From Agromyces mangrovi (GTDB taxonomy: Bacteria > Actinomycetota > Actinomycetes > Actinomycetales > Microbacteriaceae), in NCBI RefSeq assembly GCF_030296695.1, contig NZ_AP027737.1:62001-126000 (forward strand): DNA of 64,000 bases. The letters run 5' to 3'. This document shows, piece after piece, positions 47,041 through 61,748 of this stretch (within the stretch, counting starts at the first letter, position 1; every line of letters begins with the position of its first letter). The translations under genes were made by a program, and so were the position numbers. The notes under the pieces were generated by a model. The model saw only the letters and a program-made list of their open reading frames with translations, ran no database searches and was not told the origin of the DNA.

Positions 47041-47052
47041 AGCCGCGCGACC

Positions 47053-47103
47053 GAGTACGCAAAGTGCGGAGACCCGCTTCGAGATATCGGTTTCTGCGTA
47101 CTC
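47053..47103. repeat. Intergenic inverted repeat
   Basis: GAGTACGCA and TGCGTACTC form perfect 9-bp arms around 33 bases containing GGAGACCCGCTTCGAGATATCG. It lies between convergent genes and could be a terminator, but the long loop and the shared word GAGACCCG with the element at 58287 suggest a dispersed palindromic repeat. Confidence 0.5.
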
Positions 47104-47127
47104 CGTCGAGGGCCGAGGGCGGACAGG

Positions 47128-47607
47128 TCAGGTGCGGCGGGTGAAGCGCAGCGGCTCGTCCTGGTACGGTGCCCACGCGGCGTGCTCGTGGTCACTGATG
47201 CGGCGCGGGCGACCGCTCGCGGCGTCGACGAGCACGATCGTCGTCGCGGCGCGCGCGAACAGCGTGCGCGGCTCGCTCTCGGGCGGCGCGAACACCTCGT
47301 AGCAGACGTCGAGCCGGGCGCCCGACATGTTCGCGATCCAGAGCTCCACGTCGAGCGGTGCGCGCAGGTACGGCACCGGTGCGAGGTACTCGACCTCCTG
47401 CCGCGCGATCAGCGTGATCGTGTCGGCGCCCGGCCGACCGTCGATCACCGCAGTCGACGCGCCCACCGCGGCATCGCGTGCATCGTGGCTGACCCAGAAC
47501 GCCTCGATGCGCGCCTCCTCGAGGAGGCGCAGCATCTCGGCGTTGTTGACGTGGCCGTACGCGTCGAGGTCCGACCAGCGCAGTCGGATGGGCACGTGCA
47601 GCCGCAC
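47128..47607 (-). CDS. Acyl-CoA thioesterase, 4HBT hot-dog family (YbgC/FadM-like)
   Basis: 159-residue single hot-dog thioesterase. The family signature is IRLRWSDLDAYGHVNNAEMLRLLEEAR, where Asp in DLDAYGHVNN is the catalytic residue of 4-hydroxybenzoyl-CoA-type enzymes. The substrate is an acyl-CoA of unknown chain. The start is GTG 47607, only 3 bases after the ettA stop; a similar thioesterase beside ettA and ssb is seen in mycobacteria. Confidence 0.92.
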   Translation of the reverse strand: MRLHVPIRLRWSDLDAYGHVNNAEMLRLLEEARIEAFWVSHDARDAAVGASTAVIDGRPGADTITLIARQEVEYLAPVPYLRAPLDVELWIANMSGARLDVCYEVFAPPESEPRTLFARAATTIVLVDAASGRPRRISDHEHAAWAPYQDEPLRFTRRT

Positions 47608-58089: not shown

Positions 58090-58722
58090 TCAGCGAGGGA
58101 ACGGCCAGGCGCCGTCGACGACGAGGTCCGCGTGGTGCTCCGGCGCGGCGGCCGACACGTAGGCGCGCCACTGGCGCTCCCAGGTGTCCCAGAACGGATC
58201 GAACCCGCCCCGGTCGCGTTCGAGCGCGCGCCGCCTCCGGGCATCCTCCCCCGCGACCATCCACACCCGCACCACCCGCGGTGCTGAGACCCGTCGATTC
58301 CCTGCGTTCTCAGGCCCCGGAACGCAGGTATTCGACGGGTCTGGAAGGCATATCGGGCGGGCGAAGGCGCCGCAGCCCTCGACGACGAGGCGGCCGCCGG
58401 GGCGCACGAGGTGGGACTCGGCGGGGCGGTCGCGCTGCCAGTCCCAGCGGCGCCAGGAGCCCGCGGCACCGCGGGCGCGCGGAATGAGCACGCCGTCGCG
58501 CACCGCGCGCGATCCCGCGGCGAGCCCGTCCCACCCCGGGTAGATCGCGTCGAGGCGCAGCAGGTCCACCGGCAGCGACCCGGCCGCCGCCACGATCGCG
58601 TCGGCGAGGCTCGACTTGCCGGCACCGCTCGGGCCGTCGACGACGACAGTCGCCGACGGCCGCGAACGAAGGAACGCCGCGAGCCGTCGCGCCGCCACCG
58701 CGGGGGCAAGTCGCTCAGCCAA
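58090..58722 (-). CDS. P-loop kinase-like protein (uridine-kinase/AAA type), last gene of the thiamine transporter operon
   Basis: 210-residue ATP-binding protein. The Walker A motif is VVVDGPSGAGKSSLADAI (about residue 28), and DLLRLDAIYPGWDGL and LVVEGCGAF follow the uridine/pantothenate-kinase-like pattern. After GCGAFARP it contains about 20 extra residues encoded by a 56-base palindrome (58287-58342) before VVRVWMVAGEDARRRRALERDR resumes. The start is TTG 58722, overlapping the upstream T-component stop by 8 bases; an internal GTG is an alternative. The substrate is unknown; a vitamin-precursor kinase is one possibility from context (inference). Confidence 0.82.
   Translation of the reverse strand: MAERLAPAVAARRLAAFLRSRPSATVVVDGPSGAGKSSLADAIVAAAGSLPVDLLRLDAIYPGWDGLAAGSRAVRDGVLIPRARGAAGSWRRWDWQRDRPAESHLVRPGGRLVVEGCGAFARPICLPDPSNTCVPGPENAGNRRVSAPRVVRVWMVAGEDARRRRALERDRGGFDPFWDTWERQWRAYVSAAAPEHHADLVVDGAWPFPR
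58287..58342. repeat. In-frame palindromic element inside the kinase gene
   Basis: Outer arms AGACCCGTCGA / TCGACGGGTCT (11 bp, perfect), inner arms CCTGCGTTC / GAACGCAGG (9 bp, perfect), a small internal loop and a 10-base apex. It is read through in frame without a stop. Where related kinases have only a short link, this gene has about 20 extra residues. Confidence 0.7.
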
Positions 58723-59497
58723 GGATGAAGTTCCAGCTGCCGGATGCCACGGCCACGACCACGCACGCCGCCGCCACGACCGCGCCGATGGCGATGAGCA
58801 CCACCTCGGCGCCGCCGAAGTGCACCTCGCGCGCGTGCGACCGCGCGATGTCGGCGCCGAACCCGCGCGCCTCCATCGCGGTGGCGAGCTTCGACCCGCG
58901 CCGGATGGAGAGCACGAGCAGCCCGAAGGCCTGGCCGACGAGCCGCGGCACGATCCAGCGGTCGCCCACGCCGCGCGCCCGGCGCGCCAGCGCGAGCGCG
59001 CGCCAATCGTCCATGAACAGGCCCACCAGGCGCAGCGCCCCGAGCGCGCCGAGCACGAATCGCTCGGGCAGCCGCAGCGTCTGCGAGAGCCCGTCGGCGA
59101 AGTCGGTCGGGTCGATGGTGAGGAACAGCACCACCGCGGGCAACGCGATGGCGATCACGCGGGCGGCCGTCGAGAGGCCGATCTCGATCGACCCCTGCGA
59201 GACCTGGATCAGGCCCCACTCGAAGTAGACCGTGCCGCCGGTGCGACCGTAGAGCACCATGCTGAGCCCCGCGAGCGGACCCGCGATCCACACCACGGCG
59301 GTGCGCCGCGACCAGACCAGCGCACCGAGCCCCGCCGCCCAGAACAGCAGCAGCTCGAGCACGATCGCCGTGCCCGCCGAAACCGGGTCGAGCGTGAGCA
59401 GCAGCGCCAGGCTGAGCGGCACGGTCGCCGCGACCTTCGCGACCGGGTTGCGCCGGCCGACCCAGGTCGTGCCGCCGCGGGCGTCGAGCAGGCTCAT
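58715..59497 (-). CDS. ECF transporter T component (CbiQ/EcfT family), thiamine YkoC-like
   Basis: 260-residue integral membrane protein that couples ATP hydrolysis to the substrate-binding subunit. About five or six hydrophobic segments are present. The EcfT coupling signatures are LALARRARGVGDRW and, later, AMEARGFGADIARS, both of the Ala-Arg-Gly type that touch the ATPases. The ATG at 59497 overlaps the ATPase stop in ATGA. With the S component and fused ATPase it completes a YkoEDC-type thiamine importer. Confidence 0.92.
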   Translation of the reverse strand: MSLLDARGGTTWVGRRNPVAKVAATVPLSLALLLTLDPVSAGTAIVLELLLFWAAGLGALVWSRRTAVVWIAGPLAGLSMVLYGRTGGTVYFEWGLIQVSQGSIEIGLSTAARVIAIALPAVVLFLTIDPTDFADGLSQTLRLPERFVLGALGALRLVGLFMDDWRALALARRARGVGDRWIVPRLVGQAFGLLVLSIRRGSKLATAMEARGFGADIARSHAREVHFGGAEVVLIAIGAVVAAACVVVAVASGSWNFILG

Positions 59498-60962
59498 GCG
59501 GGCACCTCCAGCGGGGCGAGGTCGAGCCGCTCGTCGGCGAGGGCGTCGACCACCTGCTCGTCGTGCGTGACCGCGACGATCGCGTGCCCCTCGTCGCGCA
59601 GCGCCCCGAGCAGCCCGACGAGTTCCGCCCAGGTCGTCGCGTCCTGCCCGAACGTCGGCTCGTCGAGCACGAGCACGTCTGGGCGCGAGGCGAGCACCGT
59701 CGCGACCGACAGCCGCCGCTTCTGCCCGCCCGAGAGCGTGTACGGGTTCGCCTCGGCGAGCCGGTCGAGCCGGAGGCGCACCAAGAGGTCGTCGACCCGC
59801 TGCCGGATCTCGGCGTCGGGCACCTTCTGCGCGCGCGGCCCGACGGCGAGCTCGTCGCGCACGCGACCGGTGAGGAACTGGTGCTCCGGGTCCTGGAAGA
59901 CGGTGCCGATGCGCGAGAGCAGCTGCTTCGAGCGCCATCGGTGCGGTGCCGGGTCGGCTCCGCGGGCGAGGGGGCGGATGCCCCGAGCCGGCCGCCGACC
60001 GGCGGGATGAGGCCCGCGACCGTGAGCGCGAGGGTCGACTTGCCGACGCCGTTCGGACCGGTGACGCAGAGCGCGTTGCCGGCGCGCACCGCGAGGTCGA
60101 GCCCGCCCATCACGACCACGGACGGATCGCGGCCCACGGCGAGCCCCGCGGCATCGAGCAGCACGGCACCGGCCGGACGGGGCTCGTGGTCGGGCAGCAG
60201 CCGGCGGCCCGGCAGCCAGACGCCGTCGCGTGCGAGCTCCGTCGCTCGATCGGCGAGCACGGCATCGGGCGGCCCGTCGGCCACGACGCCGCCCGAGGCG
60301 CCGAGCACGACGACCCGGTCGATCACGGGCAGCCAGGCGTCGACGCGGTGCTCGACCACGACGAGGGTTGCCCCGGTCTCGCGGGTGACGCGGTCGACGG
60401 CGTCGCGCACCTCACGCACCCCGACCGGGTCGAGGTTCGCGGTCGGTTCGTCGAGCAGCAGCAGGCCGGGTCGCATGGCGAGCGCACCGGCCAGCGCGAG
60501 GCGCTGCTTCTGCCCGCCCGAGAGGTGCGAGGTCGGGTGGTCGAGCGGCAGGTCGAGGCCGACTGCGTCGAGCGCCTCGCGCACACGGGGCCAGATCTCG
60601 TCGCGGGGCACGCCGATGTTCTCGCATCCGAATGCCACGTCGTCGCCGACCCGGGCCAGCACGACCTGCGCGTCGGGGTCCTGCAGCACGAGCGCCGCCG
60701 AGCCGGCCGCAGCGGGCGCGCCTCCGACGAGCAGCGACCCGTGCGCGTCGCCCTCCTCCTCGCCGCCCAGCACCCCGGCGAGGCCGTGCAGCAGGGTGGA
60801 CTTGCCCGAGCCCGAGGCGCCGAGCAGCAGCACGCGCTCCCCCGAGTCGATGTCGAGGTCGAGGTCGTCGATCGCCCAGGAGCGGCGGCCGGCGTGCCGC
60901 CACCCCCAGCCGGCGGCTCGCACCGCGGCCGGGGTGGCGGCACGTGACACGTCTCGGGTCAC
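59494..60962 (-). CDS. ECF transporter double ATP-binding protein (YkoD-like), frameshifted as sequenced
   Basis: Fusion of two ABC ATPase domains driving the thiamine importer. The first has Walker A LGASGSGKSTLLHG, signature HLSGGQKQRLALAG and Walker B LLLLDEPTANLD. The second has TGPNGVGKSTLALTVAG and then breaks: one extra base in the CCCC run 59981-59984 joins VGGRLGGIRPLARG to RWRSKQLLSRIGTVFQDPEHQF, and the domain ends with LSGGQKRRLSVATVLA, LVLDEPTFGQD and VTHDEQVVD. The corrected protein has 489 residues. The start is GTG 60962, one base after the S-component stop. Confidence 0.92.
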
Positions 60963-60963
60963 T

Positions 60964-61599
60964 TCAGTCGGCGATCCGCGCCTCGCGACCTGCCGCGAAG
61001 CGGCTGAGCGCTCCCGTGGACGCGAGTCCGCGCACCGCGAGCCAGGACAGCAGACCGGCGATCAGCGCGCCGCCGACGACCGCGGAGACCGTGTAGATCG
61101 CGGCGAACGCCGGCGCGGCGCCCGCGTACCAGAGCACGAGGTCGTTGATCGCCATGGCGAGGCCCGCGCCGGCACCGGCGAGGAGGGCGACGGGCAGGTT
61201 CCACTTGCGGTAGAGGAACAGCAGGAAGATGAGCTCCGCGCCGAGGCCCTGCACGAGGCCGGCCTCGATCGTCAGGAACCCGCCCCACTGGCTGCCGATG
61301 AGCGCGGAGACGACGGCGGCGACGGTCTCGGTGTAGATCGCGGCGCCCGGCTTGCGGATGATGAGCGCGCCGAGCACGCCGGCGATCAGCCAGACCGCGG
61401 CGGGGGCGGCCTGCAGGCCGGGCAGGAGCGCCTCGATCGGCGCGCTGACGCCGTTCCAGGCGAGGCCCCAGGCCCAGAAGACGACGCCGACGGCGACGCC
61501 CACGACGCTGGCGACGACGATGTCGACGACGCGCCAGCGGAGCGAGCGGGCGGGTCGCCCGGTGCCGGTGGAGGGGGTGGTGGACGTGGTTGCGTGCAC
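60964..61599 (-). CDS. ECF transporter S component, YkoE family (thiamine)
   Basis: 211-residue substrate-binding membrane subunit. I choose GTG 61599 (MHATTSTTPSTG) because AAAGGG lies about 8 bases upstream; an in-frame GTG at 61632 has no ribosome site. The family is clear from VVDIVVASVVGVAVGVVFWAWGLAWN, IRKPGAAIYTETVAAVVSALIGSQWGG and GLVQGLGAELIFLLFLYRKW. YkoE proteins bind thiamine or its hydroxymethylpyrimidine part. The TPP riboswitch directly upstream supports the assignment. Confidence 0.93.
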   Translation of the reverse strand: MHATTSTTPSTGTGRPARSLRWRVVDIVVASVVGVAVGVVFWAWGLAWNGVSAPIEALLPGLQAAPAAVWLIAGVLGALIIRKPGAAIYTETVAAVVSALIGSQWGGFLTIEAGLVQGLGAELIFLLFLYRKWNLPVALLAGAGAGLAMAINDLVLWYAGAAPAFAAIYTVSAVVGGALIAGLLSWLAVRGLASTGALSRFAAGREARIAD

Positions 61600-61649
61600 T
61601 GTTCGTGCCCTTTCTGTCAGTGAAAGCGGCACGGGAAATGAGATGGTGT

Positions 61650-61740
61650 CTGCCTCCCTGCGCTGGCATGATCCAGATCAGGTTCGACGGTCGAAGGTTG
61701 GAGAACCTTCCTCTCAGCCCGGCTCACCGGACTCCCGTGT
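61650..61740 (-). promoter_or_regulatory. TPP (thiamine pyrophosphate) riboswitch
   Basis: On the minus strand the conserved thi-box parts occur in order: ACGGGAGTCCGG, GGGCTGAGAGG, a variable hairpin (GAAGGTTCTCCAACCTTC), GTCGAACCTGATCTGGATCA and TGCCAGCGCAGGGAGGCA. It precedes the YkoE start by about 50 bases, so TPP binding should repress the importer. Confidence 0.95.
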
Positions 61741-61748
61741 TCGACACG

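Follow-up and report, generated by a model that had tools for sequence, protein, structure and literature searches.

The 56-bp palindrome that lies in frame within a P-loop kinase gene of Agromyces mangrovi is a copy of a dispersed family, here termed family A, whose members in three related Agromyces genomes flank the gene for a nuclease-like protein. Judged by comparison of sequences, such palindromes are associated with one subfamily of nuclease genes, and we infer that the encoded enzymes mobilise them. The best reading, to which we assign a probability of about 0.6, is that these palindromes are REP-like and mobile, with a nuclease rather than a RAYT acting on them; one copy would have entered a loop of the kinase, followed by later loss in the lineage of the window (the whole stretch of 64,000 nucleotides analysed). 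It has long been asked which agent moves REP-like palindromes and what makes them persist. RAYTs have been proposed for some REP families, while others are described as enzyme-less (PMC3733652).

The element is a 56-bp inverted repeat at 58287-58342, with 23-nt arms that are 91% complementary and separated by 10 nt. It contains the two nested perfect stems of 11 and 9 bp that a preliminary description had placed in coding sequence. The features of the locus are:

58090..58722, minus strand: P-loop kinase gene, 210 residues, with the element in frame (ORF, orthologue alignment, dN/dS)
58285..58344, minus strand: the 20 kinase codons that read the element, encoding the peptide PDPSNTCVPGPENAGNRRVS (ORF translation)
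58287..58342, no strand assigned: palindromic element, a 56-bp copy of family A (inverted-repeat search, motif and family comparison)
58287..58297, plus strand: outer arm AGACCCGTCGA, perfect 11-bp stem, invariant or nearly so in most positions across 14 copies
58332..58342, minus strand: inverted copy of the outer arm, pairing with 58287..58297
58301..58309, plus strand: inner arm CCTGCGTTC, perfect 9-bp stem (motif search)
58320..58328, minus strand: inverted copy of the inner arm (motif search)

RNA folding of the element gave z-scores of -5.3 on the plus and -6.5 on the minus strand, values that none of 200 shuffles equalled on either strand, and the motif CCTGCGTTC-N8-12-GAACGCAGG has a single occurrence in the window against 0.00 expected. 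A known structured RNA as the identity of the element was rejected on the Rfam search, in which no family matched there.

The minus-strand ORF reads through the palindrome with no stop, as originally claimed, and the predicted gain of about 20 residues is matched by the orthologues. Among 30 kinase loci, our own included, a regular-expression motif located the linker in 22: it comprises 8-11 residues in 17 of these and 18 and 22 in two others, whereas the linker has 30 residues in G000, the window's genome, 35 in G015 and 54 in G001, the last having two tandem elements, both in frame. The kinase of G023 is without the element, and its site reads CTTCCAGACCCGCGGG, possibly a remnant. The segment could have been an ordinary part shared by all orthologues; most of them are, instead, without it, and further copies of the palindrome were found. 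The only Pfam match of the kinase gene, to the P-loop of AAA_29, is sub-threshold (19.4 bits versus a cut-off of 27). A kinase match is present in 53 of the 60 genomes searched (own included), these matches being frequently interrupted at the element site. Its dN/dS is 0.23-0.35 before the insert and 0.18-0.33 after it, versus 0.65-1.64 within the insert, a range drawn from 20 codons only; thus, the protein is kept while the added peptide is little constrained. Upstream of the kinase gene a TPP riboswitch is seen at 61638-61748, at the far end of a minus-strand stretch running from 58090 to 61748, and the transporter-like ORFs in between presumably resemble the ykoEDC thiamine-precursor transporter. 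The kinase gene may be the end of this TPP-riboswitch/transporter operon.

As the preliminary description had surmised, the element is dispersed and REP-like: the window's genome (one contig, 3.6 Mb) carries 14 copies of family A, and the loci fetched from G001, G015 and G023 hold 51, 60 and 40, respectively. These counts took copies of length 56 only, and 55- and 59-bp copies also exist (L168, L140); two of the G015 copies (L149:4242 and L140:7475) are probably chance or decayed. A covariance-model search that scored at most 28 candidates per genome gave matches at E 0.01 or better in 15 of 199 genomes, own included. The matches are strong in the Agromyces genomes G000, G001, G015 and G023, single or doubtful in ten other genomes, and take the form of a weaker, parallel palindrome set in Herbiconiux gentiana (G093). 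The outer arms are for the most part invariant among the 14 copies of the window's genome, and the ends, AGACCC...GGGTCT, pair. Pairing across these copies reaches 86% versus 27-43% in slid versions, yet is little above that of shuffles, and compensatory change is therefore not used as support.

By a rough gene call, 89 of 109 family A clusters lie between genes, with convergent (40), codirectional (33) or divergent (16) neighbours, and eight more are located at an edge. Measured to the neighbouring stop codon, the median distance is 31 bp, with 79 of 113 distances not exceeding 60 bp. A rough rule places a further 12 clusters within an ORF, and the convincing in-frame host genes number two. 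The second of these, which we take to be sirohydrochlorin-chelatase-like, carries the palindrome in G000, G001 and G015 (L201, L141, L019), so that the expectation of open frames tolerating the element holds in three species. The initial likening to the in-frame elements of Rickettsia survives in part: in-frame copies do exist, but the family is mainly intergenic.

In the partner protein, of about 310 residues, an AbiEi-antitoxin-like N-terminal region is followed by a Vsr/homing-endonuclease-like domain at the C-terminus. Vsr-type homing endonucleases have a catalytic EDxHD motif formed by E-D-x-H-D residues; in 40 sequences of the partner, E203, D236, E247, H253 and D262 are conserved at 90% or more, and their match to this motif was judged by eye. 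The N-terminal region has the AbiEi fold (6y8q), and the C-terminal domain has a Vsr-like nuclease fold resembling the catalytic domain of I-Bth0305I (3r3p). A search of solved structures by sequence with this protein matched nothing, and in databases the subfamily appears only as 'endonuclease domain-containing protein', DUF559 or hypothetical. In G001, G015 and G023 a tandem pair of palindromes stands on each side of one such gene, in a unit bounded by what we take to be gcvT and a NUDIX gene. Comparison of the palindrome loci brought up just one more homologue, from Herbiconiux and 42-43% identical, which has its own, different 56-bp palindromes on both sides.

Homologues at E 1e-15 or better occur in 271 of 398 genomes and 63 of 85 genera of the same bacterial family. 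Among the 30 best loci fetched, 43 of 60 sides have a palindrome no more than 250 bp from the gene (both sides at 16 loci, at least one at 27), as opposed to 4 of 60 stretches at a distance of 1 kb and 2 of 58 stretches taken from kinase loci. A separate scan of 59 loci, which overlap in part with the former set, found one within 300 bp on 75 of 114 sides versus one of 111 distant stretches and one of 112 that had been shuffled. At the threshold used, 46 of the 55 fully readable loci had a palindrome on at least one side, 25 on both and nine on none, the left and right palindromes being alike in 22 of the 25 two-sided loci and dissimilar in three. Outside the family, all three Arthrobacter plasmid loci have a palindrome, two of them on both sides. 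In Microbacterium testaceum the palindrome flanking the nuclease gene recurs genome-wide (77 strand matches), and as a query in five other Microbacterium genomes it gave 41, 41, 11, 3 and 1 matches. Thirteen further DUF559 loci delimit the association: the four that are P0001-like by eye (L349, L355, L357, L358) each have an adjoining palindrome scoring at least 13.5, two of them clearly on both sides, whereas the remaining nine divide into five lacking a palindrome and four with weak ones (9.5-11.5), which we take to limit the association to one subfamily. Across 50 loci, palindrome similarity correlates with protein similarity (Pearson 0.68 overall, 0.68 for the N-terminal region and 0.54 for the nuclease part; 0 of 2000 permutations each). 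By rank the correlation is weak (Spearman 0.15, 0.22 and 0.07, respectively) and likeness of palindromes is seen only above about 55% protein identity; hence, shared ancestry could account for part of it. A partial homologue was also observed on a phage-labelled 6.7-kb contig from human stool (L362, MT837503.1), and about 120 bp from it lies a 59-bp palindrome that is nearly perfect. The match figures of a contig labelled Stenotrophomonas maltophilia (L286) are almost those of Microbacterium memoriense (L287), and this contig is perhaps contamination.

Neighbouring family A copies keep characteristic distances, with centres mainly 73, 83 or 94 bp apart. The 56 neighbouring pairs less than 150 bp apart have gaps chiefly of 17 (21 pairs) and 27 bp (24 pairs), the remainder being 16 (2), 18 (1), 25 (1), 26 (3), 28 (1), 35 (1) and 38 bp (2). 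Collapsing these to 28 orthologous sites yielded R = 0.935 at a period of 10.5 bp (p ~2e-11; 0 of 20000 random sets), under a null model with gaps drawn evenly from 10 to 45. The best-fitting period is 10.0-10.1 bp rather than 10.5, and the two main gaps are 10 bp apart. Between orthologous pairs the spacing is maintained within 2 bp, and the spacer sequences, by eye, have diverged. In the same genome the sequence-unrelated family B has spacings of 74, 94, 83, 74 and 74, and the spacing in Microbacterium (n=10) points weakly in the same direction (p ~0.015 at 10.5 bp, 0.001 at 11 bp). This regularity suggests a protein acting on double-stranded DNA that would contact neighbouring sites on one helical face.

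In one lineage, that of the window, the cognate nuclease unit is gone and so are many copies. The corresponding place in G000 is without the unit, its flanks being 97% and 94% identical to those of G001 with 20 bp between the matches. Of the 33 G001 clusters, 19, picked by synteny and not at random, could be compared in G000, where seven are kept and 12 lost. At four of the lost places G001 shares its copies with G015 or G023, and absence from G000 is therefore loss. In this comparison, which included no true pre-insertion site, neither a fresh insertion nor a target-site duplication, the mark of a MITE of a DDE insertion sequence, came to light. Where a judgement was possible, the empty sites read are losses in G000, and the flank at the empty sites is also missing or replaced over about 10-20 bp or more. 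This genome retains one other nuclease homologue (C1:538064-538975), which has five flanking copies of family B, and a copy of this family also lies in the window:

47048..47108, no strand assigned: family B copy, GAGTACGCAAAGTGCG...TGCGTACTC, unrelated in sequence to family A, 20 bp from the minus-strand ORF 47128-47607

A third dispersed family of G000, family C (CGAGTCGTCATGAAGTGTCG...), is seen at L257:15554, L262:10378 and 16491, L263:13855 and L266:9238. No cognate gene was found for it; G000 has a second DUF559 gene, and the prediction that family C (CGAGTCGTCATGAAGTG...) would lie beside it failed. At L258:371, 10090 and 10940 of G000 there are further related palindromes, which contain CTGAGGGCG / CGCCCTCAG motifs and are perhaps a fourth family.

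We propose that palindromes of roughly 50-65 bp are each paired with their own member of one nuclease-gene subfamily, whose product would bind the palindrome as double-stranded DNA, with a dimer on the nested half-sites and neighbours on one helical face. Cutting by the nuclease would spread or renew the copies, which may thus come in two forms, namely REP-like non-autonomous elements and an enzyme-bearing form with the order palindrome-gene-palindrome. The window copy would have entered the kinase loop in an ancestor shared by three Agromyces species and could persist there since, as read by the kinase, the element contains no stop; loss of the cognate unit and many copies from the window's lineage would have come later. 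We see about an even chance for the wider generalisation, that Micrococcales possess a class of ~56-bp palindromes mobilised as double-stranded DNA by AbiEi-Vsr nucleases, enzyme-specific and with helically phased pairs, as a counterpart of REP/RAYT with unrelated chemistry. A common nuclease subfamily with its own palindromes in many genera offers, in each pair, a ready protein and DNA substrate; the spacing of neighbours predicts a specific protein-DNA assembly, and comparison of the sisters G000 and G001 provides a natural example of a genome from which the nuclease gene and many copies have gone. Where repeats lie in frame, a protein that is under purifying selection has been extended by about 20-44 residues, and, if the proposal is true, copies landing in genes would be a source of new protein loops.

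Several alternatives could account for parts of this pattern. In one, the palindrome is the target of a homing nuclease whose gene homes into single palindromes, generating the palindrome-gene-palindrome arrangement, while the dispersed copies are kept or multiplied otherwise, for instance by gene conversion. The likeness of the C-terminal domain to the I-Bth0305I catalytic domain, the position of the gene between two palindrome copies and the near-identical tandem copies that suggest recombination (L126) fit with this. However, the palindromes are lineage-specific and alike beside close protein relatives, and so are not a general host site, and among the family A copies read, those that flank the gene come from one locus per genome only; we regard homing as unlikely. 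Alternatively, the AbiEi-like protein might be a regulator or nucleoid protein and the palindromes its binding sites, also serving as 3' hairpins, with no mobility. Regularly spaced neighbours, pair spacing conserved while spacers differ, and placement after stop codons are all compatible with such a role. Nevertheless, the conserved nuclease domain would then be superfluous, lineage-specific families and in-gene copies look like spread, and G000 keeps its family A copies without the cognate gene, which makes this quite improbable.

The preliminary description had anticipated a RAYT-like transposase, and small, often paired palindromes near gene ends would suit plain intrinsic terminators or ordinary REPs whose mobiliser is a RAYT (Y1 tyrosine transposase). 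However, a search with PF01797 (Y1 transposase) recovered nothing in the four Agromyces genomes or in M. testaceum, with controls firing in 5 of 14, and the AbiEi-like/Vsr-like nuclease gene was found instead; a RAYT as mobiliser is hence rejected. The single match among eight genomes searched, in Herbiconiux G093 (C11:24558-24878, L327), lies at least 44 kb from the known palindromes of its contig. Terminators as a full explanation are likewise rejected, given copies on both the upstream and the downstream side of the nuclease gene as well as within genes, the conserved sequence and length of the copies, their regular spacing and the negative Rfam result. We consider this pair of explanations very improbable and favour mobile palindromes served by the nuclease.

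Searches of the open-access literature listed no description of the nuclease-palindrome association, and the systems known to us share only parts of it. Rickettsia palindromic elements (RPEs) have many in-frame copies in protein-coding genes; the Agromyces element likewise survives in frame, but here such copies are exceptional, and it does not qualify as an RPE. In contrast to AbiEi antitoxins (6y8q), the Agromyces-type protein continues into a nuclease domain. Vsr/EDxHD homing endonucleases and their relatives (I-Bth0305I, 3r3p; MTES_1575 REase, PF18741; DUF559, PF04480) are associated with one intron or gene target, whereas this gene is tied to dispersed palindromes. REP/RAYT systems (REPtrons), as presented in PMC3733652, are closest in organisation, being small, dispersed, located at gene 3' ends, often paired and with copies flanking the associated gene. 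The Agromyces palindromes are likewise dispersed and extragenic, with 14-60 copies per genome. However, REPs measure 20-40 bp and RAYT genes are flanked by them, whereas the Agromyces unit is 56 bp with neighbours spaced 73/83/94 bp, its ends pair in place of an unpaired GTAG/CGTC tag (PMC3733652), and the gene is Vsr-like, a search of the Agromyces genomes having yielded no Y1/HUH enzyme. CGTC REPs, with 8-9-bp stems and CGTC ends, mostly in alpha-Proteobacteria, are described as having no dedicated transposase or reported associated transposase gene in PMC3733652, a text in which the term actinobacteri- is absent, and in having no RAYT association they resemble the Agromyces palindromes. The organisation of the Agromyces system is thus REP-like, but its enzyme and its repeat design are not.
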